Position numbers and translations under genes: made by a program
Assembly (NCBI GenBank): GCA_905479985.1
Contig: CAJQOM010000019.1
Span: forward strand, 1-47,825
Source of the DNA: an uncultured Gammaproteobacteria bacterium
GTDB lineage: Bacteria > Pseudomonadota > Gammaproteobacteria > Nitrosococcales > Methylophagaceae
Reading direction: 5' to 3'
DNA length: 47,825 bases
Notes under the pieces: generated by a model
Databases searched by the model: none
The model's input: only the letters and a program-made list of their open reading frames with translations
What the model was told of the DNA's origin: nothing
Shown: in pieces, positions 9,891 through 27,088 of the stretch
Position numbering within the stretch: the stretch's first letter is position 1
Layout of the letters: every line of letters starts with the position of its first letter

Positions 9891-10904
9891 TTACGCATCG
9901 TTTTGATGATAAAACACCACACGCTCTACTTCTTTCTTAGAGCCTAAAATAACCGGCACTCTTTGATGTACACCGTCAGGTTTAATCTCCATGATCCGCT
10001 CACGCCCCGTCGAGCTCATGCCGCCAGCCTGTTCGACAATAAAGCTCATCGGGCTCGCCTCATACATTAGCCTGAGCTTACCGCCATCGGTCGAAGGCTT
10101 GGTATCCAATGGATACATAAAAATACCGCCTCGTGTCAGCACCCGATAAACCTCAGCCACCATCGATGCGACCCAGCGCATATTAAAGTTTTTCTCACGT
10201 CCGCCATCAACGCCCTTCATGCACTCATCAATATAACGTTGTACCGGTGGCTCCCAAAAACGTTGATTCGACATATTAATTGCAAACTCAGCCGTCTCTT
10301 CCGGAATCGTCATCTTAGGATGGGTCAGAATAAACTCACCAACGTCCCTATCCAAGGTAAAGCCATTAACACCCTGCCCCGTCGTCAATATCATCATCGT
10401 CGTTGGGCCATAGACACAAAATCCAGCACAAACTTGCTCTGTCCCGGGCTGCATAAAGTCTTCAACTGTTGGCTCCGTCACACCCGGAGGACAACGTAAA
10501 ATAGAGAAAATAGTACCGACTGAAATATTGACATCAATATTAGAAGAACCATCTAAAGGATCAAAGGTAATTAAATACTCACCTTTAGGTAGGCCATCAG
10601 GAATTTGAATAATCTCTTCAATCTCTTCCGATGCCATCGCGGCCAAATGACCAGTCCAATTCAAATGATCCACCATCACATCATTGGTAATGATATCGAG
10701 CTTTTTTTGAACCTCGCCCTGAACATTCTCTGATTCTGCCGCCCCACCAAGGCCAATGATCCCACTGCGATTAACAAGGTGCGAGATCTTCTTACACGCA
10801 CTCGCAATATCCGTCATTAACCCCGTAAAAGATCCAGTTGAACCGGGATGGTTGCGTTGCTCTTCAACAATAAATTGAATAATAGACTTACCAATATCAG
10901 ACAT
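9891..10904 (-). CDS. fbp: Fructose-1,6-bisphosphatase class 1
   Basis: The 337-residue protein carries the metal-binding and catalytic signature [10 protein letters not shown] at residues 115-124 and the substrate-phosphate region ([20 protein letters not shown]). It also has the C-terminal segment containing [12 protein letters not shown]. It removes the C1 phosphate from fructose 1,6-bisphosphate in gluconeogenesis. In a ribulose-monophosphate methylotroph it would supply fructose 6-phosphate for regeneration of the formaldehyde acceptor. The start has an AAGG site eight bases upstream. Length matches the family. Confidence 0.95.
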
Positions 10905-18817: not shown

Positions 18818-20578
18818 TTACATCGTCTCCGGTGCTGACACACCTAACACAGACAAACCATTAGTAATCACTTGTTTAACAGCGGTAATCAACGTTAAAC
18901 GCGCCTGACTTAACGGTTGATCCTCGACAATAAACTGATGGGCATTGTAGTAAGTATGAAAATCACGGGCCAAATCCATCAAATAATGCGCCAACAAATG
19001 CGGCGTGTAATTGGTGGCAGCGGTATTAATCACTTCTGGATAACGCGATAACATCGACAATAAAGCCTGCTCATGATCTTCTGTTAAACGCGTTAGTTGC
19101 TTTTCACCTTCTACTTTGTCCCAAGTCAAACTACGTTCGGACAACTGCCTAAACACACTACAAACACGGGCATGAGCATATTGCACATAATAGACCGGAT
19201 TATCATTACTCTGAGATTTCGCTAATTCTAAATCAAAATCCATATGCTGATCGGCACCCCGTAGCACATAGAAAAAACGCGCAGCGTCTTTACCGACTTC
19301 ATCACGCAGCTCGCGCAAAGTGACAAACTGACCACTTCGGGTCGACATCGCCACTTTTTCACTGCCACGATATAACACAGCAAATTGGACTAACAGGACT
19401 TTTAACCGGTCGGCATTTTTGCCCATCGCAGTTAAAGACGCCTTCACCCGTGGTATATAACCATGATGGTCAGAACCCCAAATATCGATCACCGTATCGA
19501 AACCCCGTTGATATTTATTCAGGTGATACGCAATATCAGAAGCAAAATACGTCGTCTGACCATTATCTCGCACGACAACACGATCTTTTTCATCACCAAA
19601 TTCTGTTGATTTAAACCACCACGCGCCATCTTTTTCATACAACATTTCCGCTTTTTTCAAAGCATCAATGGCATCATCAACAACACCTGTTTCCATTAAC
19701 GACCGTTCAGAAAACCATTCATCATAATCAGTGCCGAAATCAGATAGATCTTGACGAATATCCGCTAAAATCGCATTCAGACCGGCATCAAAAACGTGCC
19801 GATAACCATCCTCACCTAACAAACGCCGTGCATTACTGATTAAATCATCAATATGCCGTTCTTTATCACCACCTGCCGGTTCATCAGCTACAACGCCATC
19901 AAACACGTCGACTGTTGGTGCTAAAAATGCATCGCCATGAGCAAACTTTAAGTTTTCAGCAATGGTTGAAACATAAGCACCTTTATAGCCATTACTTGGG
20001 AAGATAAACGTTTCACCGCAAGTTTCAAGATAACGTAACCAAACACTGGTGGCCAAAATATCCATTTGCCGACCAGCATCATTGACATAATATTCACGAT
20101 GAACTTTAAAGCCCGCCGCCTTGAGCAAGCTACTGACAGCAGAACCATAGGCTGCACCCCTACCATGCCCAACATGCAATGGCCCAGTAGGATTGGCTGA
20201 CACAAACTCGACTTGTACCGATTGTCCCGCACCTAAATCACTCTGACCAAACTGTTCGCCTTCTGCCAATATCGTTTTAACAACTTGCTGAGCAGAATCA
20301 GCTGATAATGTGAAATTAATAAAGCCCGGGCCAGCAATATCTACTTTTGTAATAAAATCTGTTTCTGGTAATGCATCCACCAATAATGTCGCGATTTGAC
20401 GTGGGTTCATCTTGGCCGAACGCGCCAACATCATCGCAACATTACAAGCAAAATCTCCGTGAGATTTATCCTTAGTCCGATCAATTTGTATTTCGGGTAG
20501 CGTCAACGCAGGCAAACTATTTTGGGCAATAAGTTGCGTTAATGTTGTCTCGATAATATGTCTAAGCTGATCTTTCAA
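18818..20578 (-). CDS. argS: Arginyl-tRNA synthetase
   Basis: The 586-residue class I synthetase has the HIGH-type motif HVGH at residues 135-138 ([13 protein letters not shown]), a KMSK-type segment ([11 protein letters not shown]) and a C-terminal DALR anticodon-binding domain. It charges tRNA-Arg. The start codon is TTG at 20578. An in-frame stop lies five codons upstream with no ATG or GTG between, and the protein begins MKDQLRHI like other ArgS. An AAGG site is about 11 bases upstream. It is cotranscribed with the SPOR gene. Confidence 0.97.
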
Positions 20579-20725: not shown

Positions 20726-22015
20726 ATGGCATATTCCTCCACATTTGAAGACGCTTTATTACGAGTACAATCTTTTGCCAAACGTGCTGATATCAACGCT
20801 GAAATTACTGAAGCCCTTTGTCACCCAAAAGAAATGATGTCCGTTAGCCTACCCATTCGTATGGACGATGGCACCAAACAATATTTCTCTGCTTACCGAT
20901 GCCGCTATAACAATATTCTCGGTCCAACAAAAGGCGGAATACGATTCCACCCGAATGTAAACAGCGATGAAGTGCAAGCCCTTGCCTTATGGATGACAAT
21001 TAAATGTGCCGTTCTCGATATCCCTTTTGGTGGTGCTAAAGGGGGCATCACTGTCAATCCAAAAGATTTATCCCCCATGGAACTAGAACGATTATCACGG
21101 GCGTATATGCGCGCTATGGTTAATTTCATCAGCCCCCACCGTGACATTCCTGCCCCTGACGTCAATACCAATGCCTTAATCATGGCTTGGATGCTAGACG
21201 AATATGAATCAATCAAGCGGGAGCACTCACCTGACGTTATCACCGGTAAACCGGTTGAGTTAGGGGGTAGCCTAGGGAGAGATGATGCAACAGGTCGTGG
21301 GGCTTATCTGTGCACACTGGAGCTGATTAAAGTCATGGGGTGGTCACCCAATAATCTAACCGTTGCAATCCAAGGCTTTGGTAATGGCGGTTACCATATT
21401 GCCCAATTACTTGAAAAAGTCGGCTGTAAAATCGTGGCCGTCAGTGATTCACAAGGGGGTATTTACGCTGAAGAAGGTTTTCATATCGACAGTCTATGGC
21501 AAGAAAAACAGAGATCACGACAAGTTCGCGCCGTTTATTGTGATGGTTCCGTCTGCGAACTGATTAATCATCACCCCATTACCAATGCAGAACTACTTGA
21601 ACTCGATGTCGACATCTTAATCCCAGCGGCACTCGAAGGCGTCATCACCAAAGACAATGCCCATCAAATTAAAGCCAAAGCCATTGTAGAAATAGCCAAT
21701 GGGCCTATTTTATTCGAAGCAGATGACATATTAGCGAGCAAAGGCATTAAAGTTATACCGGATGTCCTCGCTAACGCTGGCGGTGTTACCGTCAGTTATT
21801 TTGAGTGGGTTCAAAACCGCAGTGGCCAACACTGGTCTTTAGACGATGTCCATCAAAAACTAAAAGATAAAATGATCGATGCTTTTTCTCAAGTATGGAC
21901 ATTGGCAGAACAAAAAAATTATAGCTTACGTGAAGCGGCTTACATTAATGCTTTAAACAGAATCAGTACTGCAACCAGTAAATTAGGCACACACCACTAT
22001 TTCAAACAAACTTAA
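20726..22015 (+). CDS. Glu/Leu/Phe/Val-type glutamate dehydrogenase
   Basis: The 429-residue enzyme has the substrate-binding KGGIRFHP segment (K69 region), the catalytic lysine motif GGAKGGI (K105) and PAPDVNT. The C-terminal Rossmann domain carries VAIQGFGNGGYHIAQLL. It interconverts glutamate and 2-oxoglutarate with ammonium; the length of about 430 fits the hexameric gdhA/rocG/gudB-like class. The ribosome site AAGGTGA is well placed. It is a single plus-strand gene inserted between argS and priA, and its stop is two bases from the end of priA. Confidence 0.9.
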   Translation: MAYSSTFEDALLRVQSFAKRADINAEITEALCHPKEMMSVSLPIRMDDGTKQYFSAYRCRYNNILGPTKGGIRFHPNVNSDEVQALALWMTIKCAVLDIPFGGAKGGITVNPKDLSPMELERLSRAYMRAMVNFISPHRDIPAPDVNTNALIMAWMLDEYESIKREHSPDVITGKPVELGGSLGRDDATGRGAYLCTLELIKVMGWSPNNLTVAIQGFGNGGYHIAQLLEKVGCKIVAVSDSQGGIYAEEGFHIDSLWQEKQRSRQVRAVYCDGSVCELINHHPITNAELLELDVDILIPAALEGVITKDNAHQIKAKAIVEIANGPILFEADDILASKGIKVIPDVLANAGGVTVSYFEWVQNRSGQHWSLDDVHQKLKDKMIDAFSQVWTLAEQKNYSLREAAYINALNRISTATSKLGTHHYFKQT

Positions 22016-22017
22016 AA

Positions 22018-24204
22018 TCACATCAAGTCAATAGGATCAATATCAATCGACCATTTCACTTTTCGACTACTTTTTAAACTAGATATCGCAGGCATATGGT
22101 GGTCTAACAGCTGATGTAGGATCTTACGATTTTGTGTCGTCAATAATAATTGCGCCCGAAAATACCCTGCTCTTTTTTCCATCATGGCAGGAACAGGACC
22201 CAAAACTAATACCGCATTTTGATGACCTTGATTGAGTAAGCCAGCCACTTCCGTTAAAAAATCTAATGACAAAACCTGCGCCTTACCGCGAGCACGAATC
22301 ACACATAACGATCCCACCGGCGGCATTAAACTCCCTTTACGTTCTGCTAACAAAGCGGCAGCGATCTCACTATAACCATGATGTAATAACTGTTGCCAAA
22401 ACGGATGTTCGGTTTGACTACTTTGAATATATACCCGGCCTGACTTTTCACCACGGCCTGCTCTACCTGTCACTTGAATAATCAATTGGGCTAACACTTC
22501 TGTTGCTCGAAAATCAGCACTGAATAAACCTTGATCAGCATCCAATACCCCCACCAAGGTCACATCATGAAAATCATGGCCTTTGGCTAACATTTGGGTA
22601 CCGACTAATATTTTCGCACCCCCTTGCTGTATTTCTGACACTAATTTGGCAAAGGCTCCCACTTTTTGGGTGGTATCCCGATCAATTCGTAATACGGGAA
22701 CAGCAGGAAATAAAGTTTGTAAACTCTGCTCTATTTGTTCAGTCCCAACACCATAATGACCCAAATCAGCTGATTCACACTCAGGACAATTTTTAATTAA
22801 AGCTTGGTTAAAACCACAATGATGGCAACGTAATTGGTAACGGCCTTGATGAATAATCATCTTGGCATCGCAATCTGGACAACTAGCTTGCCATTGACAA
22901 TCATGACACATCAAAACGGGGGCATAACCCCGTTTATTAATAAACAATAATACTTGGTTATCTTTTGCTAATTCTGCTTCTATAGCCTTATAAAGCACCG
23001 TTGATAAGCCATTCACTGCCTTAGGACCTCGGCTATCAACTAACATCACTTCAGGTAACACTGCACCGGTGGCACGTTGTGTCAGTGTTAAAAGTCGATA
23101 CTGTTGAGATTGGGCACGATAAAAAGATTCTAATGACGGTGTAGCACTGCCAAGGACAATAGGAATATCAGCTTGTTTTGCTCGCATTAAGGCGACGTTT
23201 CGAGCGTGATAACGCAAACTGTCTTGTTGCTTATAAGAACTATCATGTTCTTCATCGATGATAATCAGACCCAAATTGTCTAATGGGGTAAACACAGCAG
23301 AACGTGTGCCTATCACGATATCTGCATGGCCTGACTGAGCTAATAACCAAGCTTGATGTCTATCTGTTTCATTCATTGACGAGTTAATCACAACAATCTT
23401 AGCGGAGAGATGTTGCTTAAATCGAGCAACGAATTGTTCGGTTAATCCAATCTCAGGGATTAAAATTAACACTTGCCGATTTTCAGCTAACATCTCTGCC
23501 GTTAACTGAATATAAACTTCTGTTTTACCACTTCCTGTAATACCTTGAATTAAACTGACATTAAAAGATGATTTATTATTCCATATATCTTTTACTGTGT
23601 GTGACTGCTCACTATTTAATATTTTTAGTGGGATAAGGTTAGTTTCAATAGCCGGTTTTTTAATGTCTTCATGTTGTTCAATAACTCCCTTTTCTAATAA
23701 ATTTAACAGAGTAGAACGGCAAGATCCAAGCTGTTCATACAGATCTTTTTGTGAAATAGCCTGATCAGATTGATCGAGGAAATGAATAATTTCTTGCTGC
23801 TTTTTACCGAAGCGTAAAGCTGTTTTTTTCTGTTTGACAAGAGACCAAGCATTGACTGTTTTTAAAGTATTAGGCTCTCCCGATCTTATTTTTTTAGGTA
23901 AGGCAACTTGGTAACAATCCCCAATAGGGTGATGATAATAGTGACTTGTCCAATGAATTAATTCGAATAAAGCTTTAGAAATAATAGGGGCAGGATCGAG
24001 ACAATAAATTACCTTTTTTAATCGTTCAAGGTCAGCGGGATCTTTTTCTTCTGTAATGCTGACAACAAAACCAATTATTTCGCGTGATCCAAAAGGAACT
24101 TTAACCCGAGAGCCTATTTTTATTTCAAGACTAGATGGATTAATTAAATAATCGAAAGTTTGCCTTAAAGGACAAGGAAGTGCTATTTCAGCAATGCGTG
24201 ACAT
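22018..24204 (-). CDS. priA: Primosomal replication-restart helicase PriA
   Basis: The 728-residue superfamily 2 helicase has an N-terminal DNA-binding domain, Walker A GITGSGKTE at residues 221-229 and Walker B IIDEEHDSSYKQ. The zinc-binding insertion contains four CxxC-type pairs (CHDCQWQASCPDCD, RCHHCGF, CPEC). The C-terminal helicase half has GTQMLAKGHDF and TGRAGRG. PriA reloads DnaB at stalled forks. The ATG has no Shine-Dalgarno sequence and lies at the AT-rich border of the DnaA-box region, so its promoter overlaps the proposed origin. Confidence 0.97.
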   Translation of the reverse strand: MSRIAEIALPCPLRQTFDYLINPSSLEIKIGSRVKVPFGSREIIGFVVSITEEKDPADLERLKKVIYCLDPAPIISKALFELIHWTSHYYHHPIGDCYQVALPKKIRSGEPNTLKTVNAWSLVKQKKTALRFGKKQQEIIHFLDQSDQAISQKDLYEQLGSCRSTLLNLLEKGVIEQHEDIKKPAIETNLIPLKILNSEQSHTVKDIWNNKSSFNVSLIQGITGSGKTEVYIQLTAEMLAENRQVLILIPEIGLTEQFVARFKQHLSAKIVVINSSMNETDRHQAWLLAQSGHADIVIGTRSAVFTPLDNLGLIIIDEEHDSSYKQQDSLRYHARNVALMRAKQADIPIVLGSATPSLESFYRAQSQQYRLLTLTQRATGAVLPEVMLVDSRGPKAVNGLSTVLYKAIEAELAKDNQVLLFINKRGYAPVLMCHDCQWQASCPDCDAKMIIHQGRYQLRCHHCGFNQALIKNCPECESADLGHYGVGTEQIEQSLQTLFPAVPVLRIDRDTTQKVGAFAKLVSEIQQGGAKILVGTQMLAKGHDFHDVTLVGVLDADQGLFSADFRATEVLAQLIIQVTGRAGRGEKSGRVYIQSSQTEHPFWQQLLHHGYSEIAAALLAERKGSLMPPVGSLCVIRARGKAQVLSLDFLTEVAGLLNQGHQNAVLVLGPVPAMMEKRAGYFRAQLLLTTQNRKILHQLLDHHMPAISSLKSSRKVKWSIDIDPIDLM

Positions 24205-24269
24205 GAGTAATTAAGATTAATAATAATAAATATGTTTTTAAAAGATTAATGATGTTAATGATTAATGCC

Positions 24270-24286
24270 TGTGGATATGGGGATAA
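24270..24286 (-). promoter_or_regulatory. Two abutting near-consensus DnaA boxes
   Basis: TGTGGATAT (24270-24278) and TGGGGATAA (24278-24286) each differ by one base from TGTGGATAA and share one base. They flank the AT-rich element, where DnaA would be expected to load during unwinding. Confidence 0.55.
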
Positions 24287-24295
24287 GGTTAAATA

Positions 24296-24328
24296 CTAAT
24301 TCTATTTCAGTGACTTAAATAGAATTAG
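24296..24328. repeat. Perfect 12-base inverted repeat inside the proposed origin
   Basis: CTAATTCTATTT at 24296-24307 and its exact complement at 24317-24328 are separated by nine bases. It lies between the near-consensus and consensus DnaA boxes. It could form a hairpin or be a protein-binding site; no T run follows in either direction, so a terminator is less likely. Confidence 0.75.
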
Positions 24329-24330
24329 CA

Positions 24331-24339
24331 TGTGGATAA
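24331..24339 (-). promoter_or_regulatory. Consensus DnaA box
   Basis: A perfect TGTGGATAA, the complement of TTATCCACA, placed between the inverted repeat and the paired plus-strand boxes. Confidence 0.7.
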
Positions 24340-24381
24340 TAACAAGCTTAAAATTTTACTTAATATGTATAAGTCGCTAAC

Positions 24382-24406
24382 TTATCCACAGGAAAAGTTA
24401 TCCACA
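24382..24406 (+). promoter_or_regulatory. Pair of consensus DnaA boxes
   Basis: Two perfect TTATCCACA sites (24382-24390 and 24398-24406) in direct orientation, separated by seven bases (GGAAAAG). This spacing and linker resemble the DnaA-box core of several gammaproteobacterial origins. Confidence 0.75.
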
Positions 24407-24498
24407 GTTTATGCTGTTCTTTATCCGTGAGCTTATACAGATCTTATCCTTTCTATTTCAAATGGTATCCTATTGATTAAAAAAGAGTGGGTTTAACG

Positions 24499-24993
24499 AT
24501 GAAATTAGCATTAATTGTGGCAACTGATGAAGCCGGTTTAATTGGTAGAGATAATGATCTGCCGTGGCGTTTATCTGCTGATTTGCAATATTTTCGACGT
24601 ATTACGATGGGTAAACCCATTATTATGGGTCGTCGGACGCATGAATCAATTGGCCGTCCTTTACCAGGTAGAGATAATATTATTATTACTTCAGATACAC
24701 AGTATCAGGCTGAAGGTTGCATTGTCACGCATTCAGTAGCCGAAGCGTTAAACCAGTGTAAAGCAGCAGAAGAAGCGATGATCATGGGCGGCGCTTCTTT
24801 ATATAAACAGTGTCTTCCTGATGCTGATATCATTTATTTAACACAAGTTCATGCGACGTTACAAGGTGATACTTGGTTCCCAAAGTGGGATAAAAAAGAC
24901 TGGAAATTGGTCTCAGAACAAACATATCCTGCTGATGATAAAAACGAATATCCCTATAGTTTTATGGTCTATCAACGCAAAAGTATAGTCTAA
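24499..24993 (+). CDS. folA: Dihydrofolate reductase
   Basis: The 164-residue enzyme shows the classic DHFR pattern: IGRDNDLPWRLSADLQYF with acidic D27, MGRRTHESIGRPLPGR and IMGGASLYKQ. It reduces dihydrofolate to tetrahydrofolate with NADPH. I chose the ATG at 24499, because DHFR proteins begin right at MKLALIVA; a GTG at 24487 would add four residues. The gene diverges from priA across the proposed origin. Its end overlaps the convergent TIGR02647 gene by four bases. Confidence 0.95.
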   Translation: MKLALIVATDEAGLIGRDNDLPWRLSADLQYFRRITMGKPIIMGRRTHESIGRPLPGRDNIIITSDTQYQAEGCIVTHSVAEALNQCKAAEEAMIMGGASLYKQCLPDADIIYLTQVHATLQGDTWFPKWDKKDWKLVSEQTYPADDKNEYPYSFMVYQRKSIV

Positions 24994-26775: not shown

Positions 26776-27088
26776 TCTTATCCTTGTCTGAGTCAGGTGT
26801 TTCTACAGGGTCTGTTTTCAGGGTTTCAGCAGCAGTAGCCGGTGAGTCAGCTTCGTCAGGGATGACATAGCGAGGCACCGACGGTGTGCCGTCTTCAGAA
26901 ATAGCCCTTCTTAATTCATCAGCACGTAATTCACGTGAAATATCACTGCGTACAGACTGAATAGAAGCGTTAGCACGCCCAATCCATAACCCCGTAACGC
27001 GAATTAGCTTAGGCATACGCTCTGGCCCGACAACGACCAAAGCCACTATCGCAATTAATAAGAGTTCCCAAAAACCGATATCAAACAT
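26762..27088 (-). CDS. tatB: Sec-independent protein translocase TatB
   Basis: The 108-residue protein begins MFDIGFWELLLIAIVALVVV, a single membrane helix, followed by GPERMPKLIR and an amphipathic helix. It ends with a charged tail, the standard TatB layout. It links substrate recognition by TatC to TatA recruitment. It overlaps tatC. Confidence 0.93.
   Translation of the reverse strand: MFDIGFWELLLIAIVALVVVGPERMPKLIRVTGLWIGRANASIQSVRSDISRELRADELRRAISEDGTPSVPRYVIPDEADSPATAAETLKTDPVETPDSDKDKNGNG

Follow-up and report, generated by a model that had tools for sequence, protein, structure and literature searches.

A predicted chromosomal replication origin between priA and folA, away from dnaA, with twin copies in some relatives

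Bacterial chromosomal origins are usually sought at dnaA-dnaN or at mnmG, and contigs are often rotated accordingly. The locus described here raises the question of whether a chromosome starts its replication between priA and folA, away from dnaA. The window, that is, the whole stretch of DNA analysed, is a complete contig of 47825 bp (G000:C19) from a 2.2-Mb genome in 46 contigs, presumably of a marine member of the Methylophagaceae. The dnaA gene lies outside the window, on a separate contig (G000:C22). The initial annotation proposed that the non-coding DNA between priA and folA in this window is the functional origin. Based on a cluster of DnaA boxes, an AT-rich stretch, a break in third-position GC (GC3) skew and conservation among relatives, we predict by computation that the segment 24205-24499 is the chromosomal replication origin, with a probability of about 0.93.

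The segment comprises the entire intergenic region between two divergent genes. Its left neighbor is priA, which encodes the primosomal helicase (22018-24204, minus strand; Pfam PriA_3primeBD, PriA_C and Zn_ribbon_PriA), and its right neighbor is the dihydrofolate reductase gene folA (24500-24993, plus strand), the start of which was placed by inspection at the ATG at 24500; the open reading frame that matches Pfam DHFR_1 itself opens at GTG 24487. Further to the left, Pfam matches identify a Glu/Leu dehydrogenase gene (20726-22015) and argS (18818-20578). To the right, folA is followed by a 100-aa ORF without a family and by genes for a pentapeptide protein, TatC, a TatA/B-like protein, a HIT-domain protein and histidine biosynthesis. 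As initially noticed, most genes on this side, 25 of the 28 used, are on the minus strand and thus head-on to a fork leaving the segment. A run of 25 minus-strand genes (tat, his and others) occupies 26020-47531, and its tat/his part is found near folA in many relatives, too.

Taking TTATCCACA as the perfect DnaA box and TTATNCACA as a looser pattern, the segment contains three perfect boxes and two boxes with one mismatch, as the initial annotation had it, and no further box at ≤1 mismatch occurs there. One perfect box is at 24331-24339 on the minus strand; the other two, at 24382-24390 and 24398-24406 on the plus strand, form a tandem pair (24382-24406) with the previously noted seven-base spacer GGAAAAG, which we consider to be the putative origin core. 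The one-mismatch boxes, 24270-24278 and 24278-24286, both on the minus strand, share one base and are also present in the family consensus. Two weaker elements accompany them, namely, the degenerate box TATGTATAA (24364-24372, minus strand), which is located 18 bp before the tandem pair at a place that in many relatives is taken by a perfect inverted box, and the box-like TTATACAGA (24433-24441, plus strand), of which TTATAC is kept in the family consensus. Of 60 order-1 Markov sequences, none exceeded 3 boxes at ≤1 mismatch per 294 bp, compared to five here, and none had more than one perfect box, so that the cluster is well above chance in non-coding DNA. Genome-wide (2.2 Mb), there are 22 perfect boxes, three of which fall within 76 bp in the segment, and the closest other pair in the genome list is about 5.2 kb apart. 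Over the whole window, TTATNCACA at ≤1 mismatch is no more frequent than expected (53 matches compared to 60.9); hence it is the clustering of the boxes, not their abundance, that stands out.

The boxes are adjoined by an AT-rich stretch of 64 bases (24203-24266), also among the features listed initially, that reaches 87.5% AT, the maximum for a 64-mer in the window, attained only once; we presume that it is the DNA-unwinding element (DUE). The box at 24270-24278 adjoins this stretch. A conserved TGATGTTGATG stretch, seen by eye in the family consensus, may relate to a DnaA-trio beside the DUE-proximal box. A search of the window for parS-like sites gave one 3-mismatch match, at 26927, which does not exceed chance, 29 of 100 shuffles having one as well.

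Between the two groups of boxes, there is an IHF-like site, TTTCAGTGACTTA (24305-24317, plus strand), 77 bases before the tandem pair and with one mismatch to WATCARNNNNTTR, which we take to be the IHF consensus. It is flanked by the arms (24296-24307 and 24317-24328) of the perfect 12-nt inverted repeat reported at the outset (24296-24328), which is itself part of a longer 19-nt pair at 89%. A comparison of nine rows showed no conservation of the arms, and the repeat was therefore set aside as a functional element; what is fixed is the IHF-like site at its center. Among 47 aligned origin copies, 37 have an IHF-like site at ≤1 mismatch in the stretch that was scanned, compared to 15.5 in shuffles, 36 of these at -77 to -79 from the box pair, and perfect sites occur in 13 of the 47 compared to 1.2 in shuffles. 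The case for IHF relies on the fixed position and on the excess over mononucleotide shuffles, among rows that are related rather than independent. The same scan at ≤1 mismatch finds no site in the Escherichia coli oriC, where an IHF site is known, so that the absence of a site in a given row means little. The consensus of the 47 copies reads TGATGTTgaTG within the AT-rich stretch, then gcCTGTGGATA.gTGgaTaa, and in the later part TGTGGATAA, nine bases, a box, seven bases, a box, and then TTATACag.agTTAT.

The composition of the strands switches at the segment. Raw GC skew is -0.163 to its left and -0.025 to its right, staying near zero across the 23 kb on the right, which we attribute to the head-on orientation of the genes there. 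At third codon positions, GC3 skew of the plus strand is -0.438 for the 5 genes on the plus strand and -0.199 for the 15 on the minus strand on the left, and +0.059 (3 genes on the plus strand) and +0.176 (25 on the minus strand) on the right, so that the head-on genes have the leading-strand sign that is expected at third positions. Over 48 genes (ORFs hand-picked from the ORF list, with overlapping minor ORFs omitted), the best single GC3 break is between priA and folA, with a log-likelihood gain of 126.5; none of 2000 permuted gene orders gave as strong a break, the maximum gain being 71.9. The first eight genes to the right of the segment are near zero (-0.24 to +0.22), and the clear rise begins at 28.4 kb and continues onward.

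For relatives, skew was computed from 20-kb samples of four contigs (G034:C3, G018:C1, G033:C1 and G035:C4) that represent four relatives in three genera. In all four, the sampled skew changes sign at or near the box cluster, and dnaA is embedded in one-signed territory, 75-213 kb away. In three further relatives with long single contigs, G410, G413 and G415, about 123, 217 and 146 kb, respectively, separate dnaA from the cluster. In G034:C3 (2.27 Mb), with the cluster at 362.8 kb and dnaA at 149.5 kb, skew is negative in 9/9 stretches from 20 to 373 kb, positive in 8/8 from 373 kb to 1.22 Mb, and negative in 4 from 1.45 Mb; the two halves of the cluster-bearing stretch have -0.098 and -0.016. 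In G018:C1 (cluster at 528.6 kb, dnaA at 453.3 kb), the stretches before 540 kb are negative, the one at 540-560 kb has -0.023, and 7/7 later ones are positive, the bulk skew thus becoming positive only about 30 kb beyond the cluster. The switch in G033:C1 coincides with the cluster at 303.1 kb, skew being negative to 303 kb and positive thereafter, with dnaA at 421.7 kb. In G035:C4 (cluster at 281.3 kb, dnaA at 139.9 kb), skew is -0.013 at 281-291 kb and positive at 350 and 450 kb, but is weak (range -0.048 to +0.023), and a slightly negative value persists immediately beyond the cluster. On the contig of the window's own genome that carries dnaA, each of the 4/4 stretches is negative, at -0.12 to -0.18. 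The polarity of KOPS-like GGGNAGGG, counted on the sampled stretches, was too rare to be informative.

The GC3 comparison was extended to the neighborhoods of 36 of 40 relatives' loci, which had been chosen for having the segment or the box pair (left out were G011, where the box pair was missed by the regular expression, G024, owing to its length, G028 and G031). The folA side exceeds the priA side in GC3 skew in 34/36 of these neighborhoods, and the sign goes from minus to plus in 25/36. In the remaining 11/36 (G032, G035, G030, G027, G411, G413, G417, G418, G424, G004 and G416), the switch is weaker or one-signed, with no rise at all in G027, whose priA side consists of a single gene, and G418, where the two sides are equal. 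These data also bear on the possibility that the break in the window is a recent inversion or an assembly boundary that happens to coincide with a box cluster. With the window being one of 46 contigs in the assembly, such an artifact is conceivable, but a break also occurs at or close to these genes in four relatives representing three genera, and GC3 rises across the cluster in 34 of the 36 neighborhoods; we give this explanation almost no credence.

If the origin were beside dnaA, a box cluster adjoining that gene would be expected, and none was found in the loci checked. In 5/5 members of the window's family (f1), the dnaA-dnaN gap is 14-28 bp and, like the rpmH-dnaA gap, free of TTATNCACA boxes; 7/7 further dnaA loci of 3.1-3.5 kb contain none either. 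In G033, two TTATNCACA boxes are within 3 kb of dnaA, outside its flanking gaps. The initial annotation had named a skew minimum away from the segment, such as one at a box cluster linked to dnaA, as fatal to its proposal; neither the window nor the sampled contigs of relatives gave this outcome. The GC3 break at priA-folA and the sign change at or near that place, rather than at dnaA, in the four relatives lend strong computational support to the origin reading. These observations weigh likewise on the idea that the cluster titrates or reactivates DnaA, in the manner of datA or DARS, and that replication starts elsewhere. Sites of the datA/DARS type are conserved clusters of DnaA boxes that have IHF sites, too, and the segment shares both features with them. 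Nevertheless, the strand switch in composition falls at the segment, an AT-rich stretch adjoins one of its boxes, and, in the relatives checked, the gaps beside dnaA are box-free with no skew switch at that gene, all of which makes a purely titrating or reactivating role highly improbable.

The segment and its gene context are conserved among relatives. At the DNA level, the 297-bp segment is matched in 30/59 genomes (including its own) from 3/24 genera, all in family f1, and the tandem pair is present at ≤2 mismatches in 52/57 family genomes (again including the own one), whereas the reversed control pattern gives 4 matches in 57; in G426, the pair is matched only at 2 mismatches. The pair was not found in G016, G419, G022 and G002, which are 67, 68, 84 and 86% complete, respectively, nor in G029. 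The latter, a 1.1-Mb genome of family f1 rated 100% complete, has a weak partial PriA match and contains dnaA. Across the class, an exact pair with a spacer of 5-9 bases occurs in 5/369 genomes, namely, 2 of the 4 sampled family members, G092, G200 and G273. The cluster is located between priA and folA in 40 of the 41 loci inspected (the window and 40 relatives), the exception being G031, in which it precedes folA at a contig edge. Two loci obtained by a protein search of named genomes are apparently G003:C87 and G012:C12 again and were counted once.

Several relatives carry the cluster twice. In G001 (L050), G006 (L051), G007 (L052), G009 (L053), G020 (L054) and G028 (L055), all of the window's genus, a second copy, 2.4-2.6 kb away from the other, resides in the argS-priA gap, which amounts to a bipartite arrangement in 6 of the 38 family loci that extend across both sides of priA (those of G027, G031 and G024 are truncated). 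As far as can be seen by eye, each of the six argS-side copies has its own AT-rich stretch and DUE-side boxes, some of them degenerate, and the core of the G020 copy is decayed. In G033 (L056, 9680-10329), a second copy with a decayed box is found in tandem within the priA-folA gap. The window itself has one copy only; 2 bp separate priA from the next gene, and the argS-priA interval contains no perfect box.

The twins are pertinent to a further explanation, according to which the boxes mediate transcriptional control of the divergent priA and folA by DnaA and have no role in starting replication. The segment separates two divergent gene starts and must hold their promoters, which fits this proposal. 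However, in the six relatives the second copy occupies the interval bounded by the priA stop codon and the start of argS, off the priA-folA promoter position, although there it could serve argS. Furthermore, about 1.9-2.1 kb separate priA from folA in 15 of the 39 relatives that show both genes; in the one examined, G007, the gap between the cluster and folA is filled by a 552-aa gene, presumably phosphate-cotransporter-like. Together with the skew switch at the segment, these arrangements render regulation as the sole function scarcely credible, even if the segment may regulate genes as well as start replication.

With the origin as the preferred reading, the segment would be, by mechanism, an ordinary DnaA-type oriC, its novelty consisting in the location and the twins. 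The genome encodes DnaA and a second, Hda-like match, DciA, and three HU/IHF-family genes. By analogy with E. coli, we infer that DnaA would bind two groups of boxes, the inverted and tandem ones at 24331-24406 and the overlapping pair at 24270-24286, that an IHF/HU-family DNA-bending protein at 24305-24317 would join the two box groups, and that DnaA assembly would open the AT-rich stretch at 24203-24266, after which DciA would help to load the helicase and forks would leave in both directions. The E. coli oriC (mnmG-mioC) is built alike, with an AT-rich stretch on one side, then the box CCTGTGGATA(A), in the same placement and orientation as the minus-strand box at 24270-24278, and then boxes in both orientations; it is also far from dnaA. 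The segment differs from it in the priA/folA neighbors, the tandem perfect pair with a 7-base spacer, and the loader, DciA rather than the DnaC of E. coli. Moreover, the 295-bp segment contains one GATC, and SeqA had no match in the genome (0/1 genome; the E. coli control was positive), so that SeqA-controlled sequestration of the E. coli type is not indicated.

The sister family makes it possible to ask where the origin was before. There, the dnaA-dnaN gap is 272-554 bp and contains 2 to 5 boxes in 3/3 genomes (G036, G040 and G041), and in G040, the only one among the sister-family and G273 origins in which skew was sampled on both sides, it switches at dnaA-dnaN. These putative origins, as well as that of G273, have the same box type as the segment but are beside dnaA, not priA, whereas such a cluster would not fit into the dnaA-dnaN gap of family f1. 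In G273, which belongs to another family, a near-identical inverted-then-tandem layout is found between dnaN and dnaA (L138, 10085-10128), with boxes at 10085 (minus), 10103 (plus) and 10120 (plus) and a spacer of 8 rather than 7 bases, possibly reflecting the ancestral location. Among the sister genomes, priA is about 14-25 kb from dnaA in the four where both were found (G036, G038, G040 and G041). In G036, G037, G040 and G041, argS adjoins priA, which implies that the argS-priA neighborhood predates the move. In G037, an order relative on a single, nearly complete 1.8-Mb contig, no DnaA domain match was found; dnaN starts at base 268, and dnaA may be cut by the contig ends. In family f1, the origin probably left the dnaA-dnaN gap for the priA-folA gap; that it moved, rather than being made anew, we infer.

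The subsequent history of the twins is more tentative. The tree of the 47 origin copies leaves the number of duplications unsettled, with 11 of 44 inner branches open. In G001, G006 and G007, the two sides form sister groups (95/71), the argS-side copies of G009 and G028 fall elsewhere, and the two G020 copies are sisters with weak support (80/50). One scenario, to which we would give slightly less than even odds, is that the family-wide move from dnaA-dnaN to priA-folA was followed in some members by duplication of the complete origin across priA, and that the resulting two DnaA origins about 2.5 kb apart act together or compete.

Bipartite origins are known from Bacillus subtilis and from Helicobacter pylori, with dnaA as the gene between the two parts. 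In both, two box regions flank one gene, as do the twins in the six relatives; the differences are that the gene between the twins is priA, not dnaA, and that the argS-side copies have, by eye, an AT-rich stretch of their own. The H. pylori origin is described as bipartite in PMC6742236. A box cluster far from dnaA and dnaN is reported, in a passage of the DoriC 10.0 article (PMC6323995), for Synechococcus lividus PCC 6715, which differs in phylum, box type and neighbors and is a single strain named there, compared to most of a family here. An excerpt of PMC5859110 lists priA among the genes near the Francisella origin, together with dnaA. Neither priA nor Methylophaga appears in the examined text of gammaBOriS (PMC7174414), nor does priA in that of DoriC 10.0 (PMC6323995). 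The accessible literature on Methylophaga replication, on oriC distant from dnaA and on bipartite or duplicated origins yielded no description of a priA-folA origin, although DoriC may already predict the site. What appears to be new, therefore, is the priA-folA place and the natural twin copies, whereas the kind of object is already known.

For the biology of these bacteria, the prediction has several implications. In the four sampled relatives, the strand switch is 75-213 kb from dnaA, contrary to the usual assumption of an origin at dnaA. Because the sister family keeps box clusters at dnaA-dnaN while the switch in family f1 is far from dnaA, the relocation can be placed on the tree and studied. 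The question of how adjacent origins behave is otherwise approached with engineered strains, and the natural twins would allow one to examine whether two complete origins side by side fire jointly, alternate or decay. Finally, peak-to-trough estimates of growth in these bacteria would gain from the improved placement of the origin.
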